Virus record (IMG/VR): IMGVR_UViG_3300042860_003408 | Coordinates: 21,866-85,865 of that record | Reading direction: 5' to 3' (one strand) | Length of the DNA stretch: 64,000 nucleotides | Origin: a virus | Part shown: positions 42,741 to 59,889 of the stretch, piece by piece | How positions within the stretch are numbered: position 1 is the stretch's first letter | Layout of the letters: every line of letters begins with the position of its first letter | Position numbers and translations under genes: made by a program | The notes under the pieces: generated by a model | Databases searched by the model: none | What the model saw: only the letters and a program-made list of their open reading frames with translations | Told to the model about the DNA's origin: nothing

Positions 42741-42759
42741 TTTTATTAATTTTAATTGT

Positions 42760-42824
42760 TGTCTATACAGGACTCGAACCTGTGACCTCGGATTTATCCG
42801 CGCACTCCCACCGCGCTAATAGAC
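42760..42824 (-). ncRNA. tRNA-like element lacking an anticodon loop
   Basis: On the - strand the ends pair as GTCTAT/ATAGAC. A T arm (ACAGG, loop TTCGAGT, CCTGT) is perfect, a D arm (GCGC, loop GGTGGGAGT, GCGC) is canonical, and the variable segment AGGTC is normal. Where an anticodon arm of 17 nt should be, only CGGAT-AA-ATCCG is present, a self-complementary stem with no room for a seven-base loop. It is therefore about seven bases short and cannot read a codon. It lies ten bases after the primase stop and just before the next gene. It may be a decayed tRNA or a tRNA mimic. Confidence 0.6.
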
Positions 42825-42834
42825 TTCCAGTTTG

Positions 42835-49642: not shown

Positions 49643-50134
49643 TTACTCGTTTTCAGACTCGAATTGAGCTGCGGCCCGGTTGTTTGCTTCTTTTGCTGCT
49701 TTCAAGGCTGCAATTTGAGCGTCAACATCTTCGCGAATAATTGTCAAACGTACGATTTCTCCATCGTTTGCAGAATTTGCGATTTCGTTAGCTACAACGT
49801 AGTTGCCGAAAATATTACGAACTCCATCAGTCTCACCTTCGTATTGTGAAGATTTTTTGATGATTGACTCGATCTGTTGATCGTTTAGCTTCAATGGAGC
49901 GTTTGCATCTCCGTTAATTGCTGTGACCCGGATACCTCCAGTGAGGTCCAACTCGCGAATAGACTTAACGCGAACAGATTCAATTGTTGTAAGAACTGCT
50001 GGTTTAGCAATACGAACATCTTCTGATTTATTTTTGTGGTTGTCATCCACATCTACGGTTTTAAACGTGTGTAAGTGCTGGCCATAAAATTGACCGATTA
50101 ATACTTTTGGACTTACTTTTTTATTTGGGTGCAT
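49643..50134 (-). CDS. Hypothetical protein with strong Shine-Dalgarno
   Basis: The product has 163 residues, with a basic N-terminus (H-P-N-K-K-V-S-P-K), a beta-rich middle (I-R-V-T-A-I-N-G-D) and an Ala/Glu/Asn-rich helical C-terminus (A-A-L-K-A-A-K-E-A-N-N-R-A-A). AAAGGAGGT stands seven bases before the ATG, unlike most right-arm genes, which suggests high expression. A TTGATAA motif (+ reading) lies at 50,171-50,177. It is the first gene after the 2.2 kb non-coding island. A nucleic-acid-binding role is possible but unproven. Confidence 0.55.
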   Translation of the reverse strand: MHPNKKVSPKVLIGQFYGQHLHTFKTVDVDDNHKNKSEDVRIAKPAVLTTIESVRVKSIRELDLTGGIRVTAINGDANAPLKLNDQQIESIIKKSSQYEGETDGVRNIFGNYVVANEIANSANDGEIVRLTIIREDVDAQIAALKAAKEANNRAAAQFESENE

Positions 50135-52327
50135 TTTTACCTCCTTTTTTAAAATTGATTTTTACTTGTTTTGATAACTTTTATTCCCAATGGTGCGCCT
50201 GAAAGGATTACATAACTCAAGGGAATCCATTTATAGGGTAAAAATATTTTTCCCAGACTCCTTCAATGCTAGTTGTTCCACACGGTACTAGACCCTGCAT
50301 TGGCACACCTAAGGTACTTAATATTTTTAAAGAAAATAGTCACGTTAATTACGATAACGTACAGGATCTTCACCTGCTCCGGATAACTTATATACTTACT
50401 CTGCAATGCTGGAGTGCATCGTTTTCGGTATAGCCATAGCCACTCAGACAATATTTATATGTAAATGCGAAATAAGGCCATTTAGAGGCTCATACAGACA
50501 CTTTCTTGCAGGAAATGTAGTTCTGTACTACTCCAAAATCAGGATGGCTTAAAACGCCTTAAAATACGTTGTTGCTTTTATATACATATATGCAAATTTG
50601 AGATTTCTTCAACATTTGCCTCTATATCTCGGCATCGCGGGGAAATATGGTTGGGATAGAAGTATTGCAATGGCTAGTTGCCTGCGTTCTATAGCATTTT
50701 TTCTCGGATTTGTCCCGAGCCAGTACCATAATAAAGGAATGTATATAGGAATGTTTCCTGTTTGGAAATTGCCTAAATCATAATTGATCTTATAGCGACT
50801 CTCATCTAGTTCCTTCTATTCTAATGTGATAGGGTGTCCTAAGTCTTGTAGTGCCCCTTGAAGTGCACGCATCAATGGATTTGATTCCATCTAGATCTAT
50901 TGTTTTCTATCGGGCCAGCTGACCGATAATTTTAATTGCGCTGGTATGTAGACTACTATCGTGTGACTACTTTTATTACATCAGGCAAGGATTACTCGCA
51001 AAGGCTATGAATTCACTTTTACTTTCATTGGTGTACCGCCGCTCCTTTGGACAGATTGGTAGGCTTGCTTTCATGTGTTCTGCTTGGCTTGCAGTACCTT
51101 ATGTATTCGGTAGTTGGTCCAAGGATTCACGACTCGTAATATTGAATTCAATTTATGGTTTTTTACAGTGTTTGACCATCCACTGACTTATTTTCTGCGT
51201 ATTGATTGCAGGACTCATACTTACCGAGACAGGGTAGTACTACGAAATTCAAATAAGATTTGCTTGATGTCTGGCTAGGACATCTGACGCTATACACGCT
51301 ATAGCAGCGGGGATTTTTTTTCTCGTCCCTAGAGTAACAATTTCGTTATGCATATTTTAGCCTGCAGGACGGCATTAACTGTTTCCATGATTGTTTCCGT
51401 GTTATAAATCAGTTAAACTCGAACACGTCGATTGCGCTAAGACCATTCAGGGGGTCACGTATTATTCCAAATACTACTAGCCGTCTCAGTTTTCTATATT
51501 TTACCCTCTATAGATTGTGCACACTTGACTGTGCGTGTAATTACATTCGCTACTTACTCCGAAGATTTCACTACTAGTGCATACAATTTTTCTGTATTTT
51601 TCAGCGCGGTTCCAAAGCCTACAACTGAATATTATGTCATTATTTTAGCTGACTTGCATTACCGCATAAATTCGCATCTCTCCATCTAAGGATCAGGGTG
51701 TTTTACGGACGTCTTCCCCTCGGTTTTGTTTAAAATTCTTTTTACCCGGCTTTTCCCTCTCAACTACTTGCGTTCATTGCATGGTTAAATCCAACTCCTG
51801 TTTTTTATCGACCTTTAAACTAGTTCGCCTGCTTGTTATTTCACTTGGCTCGTGACTGCTCCATGTCGCTGAACTCGCGCATTACTAATAATAAAATGAC
51901 ACCAAAGTGCCCGTGTCTTCCATTTCCACCATCCCTACTTCGCATTCAGGACTGAGATTCGAACTCAGAAATATTATTTCATAACGATTTTTTGTCTAAT
52001 AGGCAGATTTATTCCTACTGTGCTGCTCGCAACCCCATGTTGCGCATTGCTTCGGATCCTAACTTAAACTTTAATTGTTAATATGTATTTGATTACACTC
52101 TATTTAGTATTGCAGTCCATCTCATACTGCGGTCTTTAAGCCAATTTTGCCGATTGGTTTTAGGAATACTGTTCGACAAGCTTTTGTTCTTGTCTAGCCC
52201 AATTACATTTCTGCAATCTTATCAGTAGTTTTATCGTCCACTACAGCTTAGCGATGACGCGCATGTTAACCGTTTTATATAGCGCCATGCATTGGCTGCG
52301 CTCTCCTATTTTTCAACATAGGATAAT
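50135..52327. other. 2.2 kb non-coding island, GC-richer than its surroundings
   Basis: No convincing gene is found on either strand: open stretches are short and lack the start context of neighbouring genes. Rough counts on several 60-base lines give about 32-50% GC, against about 30% in adjacent coding sequence. Contents include a perfect T arm inside a tRNA-like element (51,945-52,062). Hairpins include GATGTC-CTAGCCA-GACATC near 51,267, ACGTTA with TAACGT near 50,350, TATCGG with CCGATA near 50,918, and a palindromic GGGTAAAAATATTTTTCCC near 50,236. Short-hairpin density is not above chance. A large structured RNA, an array of degenerate RNAs or a packaging/origin region are all possible. 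Confidence 0.6.
51945..52062 (-). ncRNA. Long tRNA-like element with perfect T arm
   Basis: The T arm CTGAG-TTCGAAT-CTCAG is perfect (51,952-51,968 on the + strand). The bases after it (TCCTGA) can pair with TTAGGA about 110 nt upstream, including one G-U, giving an acceptor-like stem. Between them lies a perfect hairpin CGCAAC-ATGGG-GTTGCG and no recognisable anticodon arm. At about 118 nt it is too long for a simple tRNA. The 5' end is uncertain. Confidence 0.35.
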
Positions 52328-52687
52328 TTAGTTATCTTTTGTTTCAACAAGGACAAATTGTCCGTCATCTAACTTAAGATACATGTTTCCGTTATCTACA
52401 GGGATATATCCATCTTCTACATCAGAAGAACTGATATAGTCAATATTATTGAACGAGTCTTTATAACCGTCCAATTTCCTGTAAAGTTCAAATATTCTTG
52501 ATTTTGCTAATTTTATTTTTATAGCCAAGCTATCAATTGCCTTTTTCATGTTGACTGAAACCTCTTCTTCTTTAATGTAGGTAATTTCTACTTGATAGAG
52601 TGTTTCCAACTGGCCTCTTACGTATATATACGGTTTAATTCGCTTAGAAATACTAAGCATAGAATTTACAATTTCTATGTTTGTCAT
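52328..52687 (-). CDS. Hypothetical protein
   Basis: The product has 119 residues, with a helical first two thirds (K-A-I-D-S-L-A-I-K-I-K-L-A-K-S-R-I-F-E-L) and a C-terminal acidic beta hairpin (D-N-G-N-M-Y-L-K-L-D-D-G-Q-F-V-L-V). There is no membrane segment or known motif. It is the last gene before the non-coding island and lies 11 bases after the membrane-anchored protein gene. Coiled-coil pairing with a neighbour is possible. Confidence 0.5.
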   Translation of the reverse strand: MTNIEIVNSMLSISKRIKPYIYVRGQLETLYQVEITYIKEEEVSVNMKKAIDSLAIKIKLAKSRIFELYRKLDGYKDSFNNIDYISSSDVEDGYIPVDNGNMYLKLDDGQFVLVETKDN

Positions 52688-54025: not shown

Positions 54026-54406
54026 TTAGCTAGAATTTATGTCTATCAGATCAGATCTTGCTGCGTGCTCGCCTGGTGGCGCTTTTGCATTAAGATTAAT
54101 CACTTGCGACTTATCATGACTTCTTGAAACGAAAGTCATGGTAAGCATAGAGTGTCTGTTTGAATAGGACTCCACTTTCGTATTTGTCTGCAACTTCACT
54201 GAGACTGCAGTATACTTAATGGTATTCTCGGGCAAGACAACATCTAAATTAGTTACTAAGGCAGATATAGCTAGTACATCTTTCTTCAGCTCTGCTAGTT
54301 TAACTTCATCAGAAGCTATTATTGCAGAACTATAACCAACCGCGAAAAAGCTAAGGAGATACACTAGTCTTACTAGCATTTCCCATGTTTGATACATCTT
54401 CTTCAT
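54026..54406 (-). CDS. Single-pass membrane protein overlapping the sigma-factor gene (candidate anti-sigma or accessory)
   Basis: The product has 126 residues with one membrane segment at about 10-32 (L-V-R-L-V-Y-L-L-S-F-F-A-V-G-Y). The remainder contains a Ser/Thr-rich beta-like domain and would face outward if the positive-inside rule holds. The gene overlaps the ECF-type sigma gene by 56 bases, which implies coupled translation. ECF sigma genes are often followed by a membrane anti-sigma gene, so that role is a reasonable hypothesis. The small cytoplasmic N-terminus argues for caution. Confidence 0.5.
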   Translation of the reverse strand: MKKMYQTWEMLVRLVYLLSFFAVGYSSAIIASDEVKLAELKKDVLAISALVTNLDVVLPENTIKYTAVSVKLQTNTKVESYSNRHSMLTMTFVSRSHDKSQVINLNAKAPPGEHAARSDLIDINSS

Positions 54407-54956
54407 CTTTTTTGAAATTGTTGATTAGTTTTTTTCTTTGACGACTTATTGTCGCTTTTACAGTTCCAATGGAAACCTTTAACTCATCTGCAATTTGCTG
54501 ATAAGTATATTCTTTTCCATATCGAAGGTCCATAATACGCCTAGAAGACTCTGGCATATCATCAATAATCTCCTCTATCGAGGATCTTGATTGTTTATTA
54601 ATAAGGTCTTTTTCAGGATTAGAGTTATCGGTGTAAATAACCTCGAATGTCTCATCATCGTCAATACTTATATTGCTATTCTCAAGAGCGCCACTCCTGA
54701 TTTTATCAATAATCACATTGTTTGTAACCTTTTTAACCCACATCTCGAACGAAATATCCTTTGAATATTTATGAATATTTCTGAAAATTTTAGCTATTAT
54801 TTCAGACGAAATATCTTCTTCATCTTCATTGTTTTTAAATACATTTCGCACTAATCGCCTTACAACTGGCTCGTATTCTTTGTATAAAACTAAAAATGCT
54901 TTCTGATTGTTTGATTTTGCCAAGTCGACAAATTCTTTTGTTTCTTCTTTTGTCAT
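54351..54956 (-). CDS. RNA polymerase sigma factor, ECF-like sigma-70 family
   Basis: The 201-residue protein has sigma region 2 at about 20-95 (Y-E-P-V-V-R-R-L-V, D-I-S-S-E-I-I-A-K-I-F-R-N-I, then W-V-K-K-V-T-N-N-V-I-I-D). Region 4 is at about 135-185 (M-P-E-S-S-R-R-I-M-D-L-R-Y, then Y-T-Y-Q-Q-I-A-D-E-L and V-S-I-G-T-V-K-A-T-I-S-R). There is no region 3, which fits ECF factors. It would direct host RNA polymerase to phage promoters, complementing the virion polymerase. Its leader contains a hairpin and a possible pseudoknot (54,974-55,048). It overlaps the membrane-protein gene downstream. Confidence 0.85.
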   Translation of the reverse strand: MTKEETKEFVDLAKSNNQKAFLVLYKEYEPVVRRLVRNVFKNNEDEEDISSEIIAKIFRNIHKYSKDISFEMWVKKVTNNVIIDKIRSGALENSNISIDDDETFEVIYTDNSNPEKDLINKQSRSSIEEIIDDMPESSRRIMDLRYGKEYTYQQIADELKVSIGTVKATISRQRKKLINNFKKDEEDVSNMGNASKTSVSP

Positions 54957-58165: not shown

Positions 58166-58168
58166 TGA

Positions 58169-58339
58169 CTAGTCTATTTCTTTTATTTTCACTCTGAAGA
58201 TTTGACCCTCAATTTCAAATTCATGCAACTCTCCATCTGAATTATTGAACTCTTCTTTGTCTAAACATTCAATTTTTGTTGCATTACATGCTTTTTTTAT
58301 TTCATCTGAATGAAACTGCAATACTTTTTCTAATTCCAT
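58169..58339 (-). CDS. Very small hypothetical protein (56 residues)
   Basis: The frame encodes 56 residues, acidic and helical then beta (L-E-K-V-L-Q-F-H-S-D-E-I-K-K-A, later H-E-F-E-I-E-G-Q-I-F-R-V-K-I). The stop TAG is three bases before the next gene's ATG and the start overlaps the 31-residue frame upstream. Codon use and the tight spacing support a real gene. No function is visible. Confidence 0.5.
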   Translation of the reverse strand: MELEKVLQFHSDEIKKACNATKIECLDKEEFNNSDGELHEFEIEGQIFRVKIKEID

Positions 58340-58397
58340 GCAATTCACTTGTACATAATACGCCTGTATTTAATAATTTTTCTTTTGTCCACTTCAT
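58302..58397 (-). CDS. Possible 31-residue ORF in the small-gene operon
   Basis: The ATG lies one base after the TGA of the 43-residue gene (TGATATG), typical of translational coupling. The frame runs 31 codons (M-K-W-T-K-E-K-L-L) and overlaps the start of the 56-residue gene. It is short, and the only support is the junction, so it could be a chance frame. Confidence 0.3.
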   Translation of the reverse strand: MKWTKEKLLNTGVLCTSELHGIRKSIAVSFR

Positions 58398-58398
58398 A

Positions 58399-58530
58399 TC
58401 AAATCCTTTCCTTTTTAGTGAATGGATTCATTTTTGGCTTTTTCTTGCCTTTTATAGCAATTATCTCCTTGGCAATAATCTCCTTTGTCCCAGGACCGGT
58501 TTTGTCTCTTAATCTAATTGTGTTTCCCAT
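58399..58530 (-). CDS. Very small basic protein (43 residues)
   Basis: The frame encodes 43 residues, Lys-rich and helical (K-E-I-I-A-K-E-I-I-A-I-K-G-K-K-K-P-K). A TAATCAA motif ends one base before the ATG, the context seen at other right-arm genes, which supports the start. It heads the small-gene operon running to 57,884 and follows the tRNA-like element at 58,570-58,771. A nucleic-acid-binding role is possible from charge alone. Confidence 0.5.
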   Translation of the reverse strand: MGNTIRLRDKTGPGTKEIIAKEIIAIKGKKKPKMNPFTKKERI

Positions 58531-58569
58531 ATTGATTACAGAATTTGTTGTTTTTAACTATTTTAATTG

Positions 58570-58771
58570 TGGGGATAGCCAGAGTCGAACTAGCTATTTT
58601 AATCTTCTTTAATGCCTATATCTACAATTGCTTTTCGAAATCCAATTATGTTTATTTGCATTCAGGTGAGATTACGTGATTAGGGTATGCCTAGTCTTGC
58701 AAGTCGGCGAACAGTTATCATCTGTTCTCGGCCTTAGGCATAGATTTCCCCATCCATTTCACTCTATCCCC
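58570..58771 (-). ncRNA. 202-nt tRNA-like RNA with perfect acceptor stem, T arm and inserted domain
   Basis: The - strand ends pair perfectly as GGGGATA/TATCCCC. The T arm GCTAG-TTCGACT-CTGGC adjoins with five pairs (one G-U). About 160 nt replace the D and anticodon arms. They include a perfect eight-base stem TATGCCTA/TAGGCATA enclosing GAACAG-ATGATAA-CTGTTC, whose seven-base loop has U33 and the triplet GAT, as in tRNA-Ile. A 20-codon frame starting M-Q-I-N-I-I-G-F-R-K lies in the 3' part. It recalls tmRNA in layout but is shorter and lacks the usual tmRNA 5' motif. Confidence 0.5.
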
Positions 58772-58779
58772 GTATTTTG

Positions 58780-58861
58780 TGCCACTTTAGAGATTCGAAC
58801 TCATCAGTCCATTTCTGGTTTCCGGTTCCTTATTAGGGCTATCATCCCAATAAGTAGTGGC
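58780..58861 (-). ncRNA. 82-nt tRNA-like element with ATGATAG loop
   Basis: The ends GCCACT/AGTGGC pair, and a T-arm core GAG-TTCGAAT-CTC is present with only three pairs. A central hairpin (CTTATT, GGG, loop ATGATAG, CCC, AATAAG) has a seven-base loop with U33 and GAT at the decoding positions. No D arm is seen, and about 30 nt separate the hairpin from the T arm. It ends eight bases before the 5' end of the neighbouring 202-nt element, so the two are in tandem. Confidence 0.4.
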
Positions 58862-59241
58862 GTTTGGTTAAAGCAATGAAGACTAATTTACTATCACCTA
58901 TCATTAATAGAAGATTAAGATTTGCGCTTGCATCATTGCTTTAATTTTTGACTCTTATTTGCAGTTAGTATCATACTGTATAAGTCAATTTCAGTCCTTG
59001 CAGTGGAATAAATATTTGTACGTAGTTTTCTCCACATGGGAGGACGTGGCTCGATTAGTATTACGATTGCAATCTCTACAAACTATTTCACGCTCTTTTT
59101 ACATATTTACATCTAACAAACTAATCACCTGCATGTGATTGATAATTATATCACTAAGCTACATTCACACTTAAGTGAAGAGGCTATTCTTAGATTTTTC
59201 GTCCTTAATTATCTATTGCTTCAATCTGAAATTGATTTATT
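58862..59241. other. 380-nt spacer, possible decayed gene fragment
   Basis: No intact gene is seen. On the - strand an open frame at 58,991-59,098 would read V-C-R-D-C-N-R with a later F-H-C-K-D, a zinc-ribbon-like pattern, but it has no usable start: an ATG-TAA sits directly before it. A second frame in the same stretch also reads well for about 30 codons. This looks like a small decayed gene or chance. The rest is AT-rich leader. Confidence 0.3.
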
Positions 59242-59735: not shown

Positions 59736-59818
59736 AAAAACTATAAATATTCTTGCAAATATTGATTTTGCTCATTTGTAGCCCGCGCGGCAATCTTTGA
59801 ATATTTATGTTTTATTGT

Positions 59819-59889
59819 AGCCCCACGAGGAATCGAACCCCGCTTCTTAGACTGAAGGTCTATTGTCCTAACCGATAGACGATAGGGCC
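59819..59889 (-). tRNA. tRNA-Glu (TTC)
   Basis: A canonical 71-72 nt cloverleaf. The acceptor GGCCCTA pairs with TGGGGCT (G-U allowed). The D arm is GTCT/GGAC with a GG-containing loop, the anticodon loop is CCTTCAG, and the T arm uses GGTTCGATTCC. The D-arm pattern GTCTATCGGTTAGGAC is typical of Glu. Position 33 is C rather than T and one pair of the anticodon stem is mismatched. No CCA is encoded. It is the only ordinary tRNA recognised in the window. Confidence 0.85.

Follow-up and report, generated by a model that had tools for sequence, protein, structure and literature searches.

We describe a stretch of 2,193 nucleotides (nt), positions 50135 to 52327 of a 64,000-nt window from an 85,865-base viral record (IMG/VR record IMGVR_UViG_3300042860_003408), which probably encodes a large, structured non-coding RNA of about 2 kilobases (kb) on the minus strand. 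This explanation, which sets aside a possible feedback step discussed below, was drawn from sequence comparison with crass-like phages: the stretch is conserved in place and size, is non-coding, shows RNA-type covariation in which G-U pairs fall on the gene strand, and carries a two-hairpin signature shared with relatives, which together argue for structured RNA. That it belongs to a family of such RNAs is quite likely, and we present it as a candidate for a new family of structured phage RNAs of very large size, of the same kind as GOLLD and ROOL and new in family and size.

50135..52327, minus strand: candidate large structured non-coding RNA region (no open reading frame [ORF] above 61 amino acids [aa]; conserved length and place; covariation within its own clade)

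These limits are nominal, being those of the neighboring reading frames, and the ends of the RNA may lie elsewhere. RNA position p equals 52328 minus the window coordinate.

Conserved place and size of the gap

An earlier note on the window had pointed to a 2.2 kb non-coding island at 50135-52327, and its coordinates proved exact. Minus-strand genes frame the stretch, the upstream one (119 aa) ending at 52328 and the downstream one (163 aa) starting at 50134. There is no credible ORF between them; counting from at least 30 aa, the longest has 61 aa. The second-longest ORF-free stretch of the window, at 58166-59241, has 1,076 nt and is thus about half as long as this one, which is the longest. 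Three neighboring genes serve the comparison with relatives:

52328..52687, minus strand: 119-aa gene bordering the gap on its 5' side, a homolog of which occupies this position in Loutivirinae
49643..50134, minus strand: 163-aa gene bordering the gap on its 3' side, in the same homology network at each of the 54 loci with a readable gene here
54351..54956, minus strand: phage RNA polymerase sigma factor, the synteny anchor

Entry to the relatives came through a weak blastn match (40 nt, E value about 2) to cr53_1, inside an unannotated gap of 2.1 kb; a search via the window's downstream protein confirmed no related locus, and tblastn in phages returned none. In other Suoliviridae, the sigma factor is usually followed by a small gene; then come a gene of ∼450-570 aa, another one or two small genes, and the gap. 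The gap measures about 1.9-2.5 kb in these records and is followed by two conserved small genes, with the DNA polymerase further on (some of the stretches compared end before the polymerase, and L015 and L017 carry no annotation). Protein comparison found four genes to be homologous between the window and Suoliviridae: the sigma factor, the genes immediately 5' and 3' of the gap, and another gene further downstream.

A scan of IMG/VR with a sigma factor alignment gave 44 loci. With a mechanical gap finder applied to 63 loci and the window, a gap of >700 nt was located in 61 of the 64 rows, and the 3 remaining rows are loci cut off before the gap position. Removal of 5 identical gaps left 56 unique gaps; those of L039, L050, and L063, which are cut or split, were excluded from the length and coding statistics. 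For the resulting 53 gaps, the mean length is 2149 nt (standard deviation, 154; range, 1731-2514). Some IMG/VR loci are RefSeq cr phages, the gaps of L037, L048, L051, and L062, for example, being identical to those of L007, L016, L021, and L020, so the loci are partly non-independent. Coding sequences annotated inside the gap at L010:12119-12304, L013:9380-9541, L018:6510-6947, and L019:11356-11793 are short or opposite-strand calls and probably spurious.

The gaps fall into group A (the window, L022-L024, L026, L027, and L029-L031) and groups B, C, and D, with L008 standing alone; the window was placed in group A by its sigma factor and short blastn matches, not by overall similarity of the gap. 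A further scan that used only an RNA motif of groups B and C gave 32 contigs, in 30 of which the motif lies outside ORFs of at least 75 aa. Both flanks were present in 22 contigs, and the gap spans 2025-2330 nt in 19 of these and 532, 1062, and 1561 nt in the others. Conservation in relatives, set beforehand as a test of the island, was thus found for both place and size: across Suoliviridae crass-like phages and environmental relatives, an ORF-free gap follows the phage sigma factor and precedes one conserved gene family. The window shares this trait of the proposed family, with ∼2.1 kb free of ORFs separating the sigma cluster from the conserved downstream gene.

Coding potential

A gene with a different start or code had been named in advance as the alternative to an RNA, and a decayed, frameshifted, or recoded protein gene deserves mention since, according to the part of a review covered here (PMC10136315), TAG or TGA is reassigned in some crass-like phages. 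Across the 53 gaps, the longest stop-free run on the gene strand averages 70.4 codons, versus 68.4 in dinucleotide shuffles. Reading TAG as sense (glutamine) gives 89.1 versus 90.9 expected, and reading TGA as sense (tryptophan) gives 93.3 versus 86.9. With runs near the shuffle level under three codes, and with the genes around the stretch reading normally in genetic code table 11, a protein gene in another code was ruled out, no alternative start or code found support in the gaps, and decay or recoding of any sort is extremely unlikely.

Covariation

The earlier note had proposed covariation analysis on relatives, and this analysis gave helices above the null in all three groups tested, with the flanking genes close to or under it. 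Near-identical rows were thinned beforehand; a helix was counted if it had at least 4 pairs and at least 2 double-sided changes, and the null, which preserves phylogeny, reassigns the substitutions observed on the tree to different sites. Group C yielded 34 covarying helices (null mean, 10.4; maximum, 20; 15 nulls) and group B yielded 14 (null mean, 7.7; maximum, 13), with 1 covarying helix in the flanking genes for each. In the window's own clade, a strict count gave 4 helices (null mean, 0.1; maximum, 1; 20 nulls) and a looser count gave 9 (null mean, 2.2; maximum, 6), with 0-1 in the flanks. When only Watson-Crick pairs were admitted, the gaps retained 28 and 30 helices, versus 0, 0, 2, and 4 in flanks. 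The strongest individual helix, a hairpin of group C with the loop GCGCAAC, covaries at 7 of 7 pairs.

Groups B, C, and D have an ordered motif set in common, consisting of the collinear motifs CGAGAAUAUGUUA, AAAAGGUAGG, GAGAACCG, and GUGCCAACCG and the GCGCAAC hairpin. This order, together with the constant total length, speaks against the gap being a spacer shared by several independent small RNAs or ribozymes, an arrangement we consider decidedly unlikely. Such an arrangement would account for the local nature of most well-supported helices, for the shift in position of the two-hairpin element between groups (see below), and for the presence of Hatchet ribozymes and RAGATH RNAs in neighboring spacers of relatives. 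No Rfam ribozyme, however, was detected in the window's gap, nor at gathering score in the gaps of 13 related loci.

The two-hairpin UCGUAAU element

The signature that links the window to the other groups is a pair of adjacent hairpins:

50332..50389, minus strand: two-hairpin element with loop UCGUAAU (covariation; R1 match; out-of-sample R2 match; G-U excess)

The first stem, GCAGG/CCUGU, pairs 50377-50373 with 50365-50361, and the second, ACGUUA/UAACGU, pairs 50360-50355 with 50347-50342 and is closed by the UCGUAAU loop. An alignment of 14 sequences contains 30 double-sided changes versus 11.2 in shuffles (0 of 500 reach 30), and shifting the pair partners by 1-3 columns abolishes the signal. 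Among the pair cells are 27 G-U and 2 A-C combinations, an imbalance that points to base-paired RNA with the sequence of the gene strand. The same imbalance counts against a role at the DNA level, for example as a replication origin or packaging site. We hold this to be very unlikely: relatives do have the DNA polymerase gene downstream of the gap, but the stretch has no iterons, and a repeat search recovered just short two-copy families.

Covariance model R1 was run on 53 sources (956 kb). All 28 matches with E values below 0.08 (14 of them training rows) lie within gaps on the gene strand; of 30 weaker matches (E values of 0.086-4.6), 11 are in gaps. A first exact-pattern scan of viral contigs for the element had given 0 matches. 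Model R2 was trained on groups B and C only, without the window's clade, and searched against 25 sources. It nonetheless finds the window at 50336-50377 (E value, 3.3e-6), and the element is thus a second trait of the proposed family that the window carries. Further R2 matches in gaps are L030 (5.5e-5), L031 (0.004), L029 (0.023), and L008 (0.031), the weakest listed being L022 (0.2) and L032 (0.35). Off the gaps, R2 matched the other strand of L009 (E value, 1.7) and of L012, to which we return below. L057 has a second two-hairpin match at 0.96 of its gap length.

Points against the large-RNA reading

Several observations weigh against reading the gaps as genes of a large structured RNA. The excess of group B over its null is small (14 versus a maximum of 13). 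None of the collinear motifs that groups B, C, and D share was found in the window, and group A has no ordered set of them. A third model, R3, for which the window was a training member, gave no convincing match outside group A and was rejected as a bridge from the window's clade to the other groups. The two-hairpin element lies at 0.80-0.89 of the gap length in group A versus 0.19-0.42 elsewhere, and the R2 match on the minus strand of L012 has an E value of 0.024. The missing motifs, the confinement of R3, and the shift in position indicate that the RNA is either rearranged or only partly shared, and homology over the full length between the window's clade and groups B, C, and D is unproven.

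RNAalifold energies compared with column shuffles looked promising at first; they do not separate gaps from coding flanks, and because the flanks score alike, the z-scores were dropped as evidence. Outside Suoliviridae, crAss001 (Steigviridae) and crAss002 (Intestiviridae), one phage per family, are without such a gap, and R1 found no convincing match in either (best E value, 0.018, on the minus strand of L070).

Comparison with known RNA families

At gathering score, Rfam detects only two tRNAs in the whole window, tRNA-Glu at 59817-59889, which is also the sole call of ARAGORN, and one at 42759-42825, which ARAGORN missed. A permissive Rfam scan of the window's gap returned nothing up to an E value of 5. 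The earlier note had considered GOLLD- or ROOL-type RNAs and listed transfer-messenger RNA (tmRNA) and group I and II introns among the families to search. GOLLD had no match in the gap at gathering score or at E values of ≤5, and the ROOL model had none. No tmRNA, whether as tRNA-like domain or tag frame, was found there by ARAGORN or Rfam, and the models of group I and group II catalytic cores did not match. Hatchet and RAGATH models were likewise negative in the window's gap. The suggestion of a large structured RNA of unassigned family is thus borne out by synteny, covariation above null, and covariance models; the specific families named did not match.

ROOL is smaller than a region of 2 kb, and GOLLD forms an RNA nanocage. 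In the part of PMC12286853 covered here, GOLLD is described as a large, structured, phage-encoded RNA of unknown function, many examples of which exceed 800 nt, and as the largest of three RNA classes studied, and ROOL is described as a large RNA of phages and prophages with elaborate structure and no known protein partner. The candidate presented here resembles GOLLD as a large structured phage RNA predicted from sequence; it differs in its size of about 2.1 kb, in having no adjacent tRNA island, and in lacking an Rfam match. The likeness to ROOL is again that of a large phage RNA, with no match and a different neighborhood; neither ARAGORN nor Rfam located in the window a tRNA island of the kind often seen with ROOL.

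Structured RNAs of other kinds occur in the same region of crass-like genomes. Permuted tmRNA (RF04321) lies upstream of the sigma gene at L030:1690-1880 and L046:5200-5421, where deposited records also annotate tmRNA; these are separate loci, and the gap itself is unmatched. Group I introns lie upstream of the sigma gene at L005:6469-6758 and L009:6367-6611, and Hatchet ribozymes and RAGATH-7, -9, -20, and -22 recur in small Suoliviridae spacers upstream of sigma (L004-L007, L009, and L035).

The downstream gene and a possible feedback step

Many gaps of groups B and C have a final hairpin that extends into the start region of the gene that follows. Its motif has the form NNNNNUC - AUCA-loop hairpin - AUCAAAAAG - GANNNNN, and the outer stem shows 30 double-sided changes versus 10.1 in shuffles (0 of 500). 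The motif was counted 39 times in 114 kb of gaps versus 14 times, mostly weakly, in 1.66 megabases elsewhere; for one of these 14 (L058), the gap finder had set an ORF start too early, and the copy lies shortly after it. Several gaps of group B, and one of group D, contain a second copy 280-600 nt in. A search for the motif found none in the window or its clade.

The overlap would also fit a very long regulatory leader of the following operon, with structures acting in cis and no free RNA. Such a leader would be on the same strand as, and directly upstream of, a gene that belongs to a single homology network in all 54 of the loci in which it is readable. Against this, a constant 2.1 kb would far exceed what a leader needs, and conserved motifs occur at a distance of 1-2 kb ahead of the gene; we consider a leader quite unlikely.

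Under the explanation by a free large RNA, the RNA would be read on the minus strand along with the surrounding genes, in the order sigma factor, RNA, conserved small gene, and then replication genes, and would be transcribed and processed into one molecule. It would probably work within an RNA-protein particle assembled in the replication phase, for which it may act as the scaffold. A tentative proposal is that this ribosome-scale RNA of near-constant length, unlike known families, might be the core of a phage ribonucleoprotein particle of Suoliviridae-like crass phages, with the adjacent gene encoding a protein component that is self-controlled, in part of the group, via a mimic of its binding site.

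In the feedback of ribosomal proteins, a motif in the RNA is repeated at the start of the adjacent gene. The copies of the motif inside the RNA and over the next gene's start in several relatives suggest such feedback, in which the protein encoded directly after the RNA could bind it and limit its own translation. We regard this step as unlikely. Autoregulation of ribosomal proteins resembles it in the layout predicted from these sequences and differs in that the window lacks the motif and the downstream protein has no recognized RNA-binding family. The 163-aa protein matched no Pfam or PHROG family at a convincing E value; its AlphaFold model has a mean predicted local distance difference test score of 79, and its fold had no match in the PDB at E values of ≤0.001.

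Other elements in the stretch

Four further features were located in the window's candidate RNA region:

50957..51077, minus strand: core block of eight aligned group A gaps, a GCAAG...CUUGC helix around a GUCCAAA-loop hairpin, followed by a GUCAC motif
51046..51052, minus strand: GUCCAAA loop, with a stem of just 3 base pairs in the window, read from the sequence
50851..50868, minus strand: hairpin with a UUCAAG (T-loop-like) loop, by group A covariation
51952..51968, minus strand: T arm noted earlier, ctgagattcgaactcag as read on the plus strand, not conserved in relatives

The core block was defined by its R3 match and by pair counts. Hairpins with CUCCAAA or GUCCAAA loops recur in many gaps, with stems that are fully changed and unrelated in sequence. 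A kissing-loop interaction pairing the CCAAA loop with a complementary stretch was rejected, as no consistent partner emerged in the 21 gaps tested. In the hairpin at 50851-50868, whose loop is UUCAAG or UUCGAG, all four pairs covary across 7 of 8 group A gaps.

The T arm, a perfect one in the earlier description, is present at 51952-51968, and neither ARAGORN nor Rfam called a tRNA or tmRNA there. Among the eight group A gaps searched, its 8-mer TTCGAATC occurs only in the window and in L029, elsewhere in that gap, from which we conclude that the arm is not conserved. The island had further been described as GC-richer than the genes around it, and this had been taken as a signature of structured RNA. 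The enrichment holds in the window, where GC content (guanine plus cytosine) is 0.391 versus about 0.33-0.34 in the flanks, the 95th percentile among windows of the same size. It does not hold as a general trait: gap GC is at least 0.02 above flank GC in 14 of the 56 unique gaps, the window's excess of 0.058 being the largest, and GC was dropped as an indicator of structure.

Significance and literature

If this reading is correct, a structured RNA of 2.1 kb, longer than the GOLLD class and ranking with the largest structured RNAs known from bacterial viruses, has been overlooked in deposited genomes of one family among the abundant human gut phages. It would offer RNA biologists a new large fold and would be a candidate conserved non-protein part of the crass infection program, and its covariance signatures make it testable in existing gut metatranscriptomes. 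The region is unreported in the parts covered of PMC full texts on crass-like or Crassvirales phages with non-coding or large RNA, a scope of open articles outside preprints and subscription journals. The portions covered of PMC7886860, PMC10136315, PMC12386605, PMC11054128, and PMC12697116 do not mention it, nor do those of PMC12118408 and PMC8375218, which report RNA sequencing of other crass phages. Suoliviridae have so far yielded no cultured isolate, according to the part of the review PMC10136315 consulted.

TROVE/Ro60 was considered as a neighboring protein and rejected, as four large proteins near Suoliviridae gaps did not match it and none was found in the window's record. In crAss001, a spacer of 905 nt adjoins a TROVE/Ro60 gene (L067:43286-44190, corresponding to crAss001 95965-96869). 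This spacer holds a 144-nt Rfam tRNA match, possibly intron-bearing, at L067:43774-43917.
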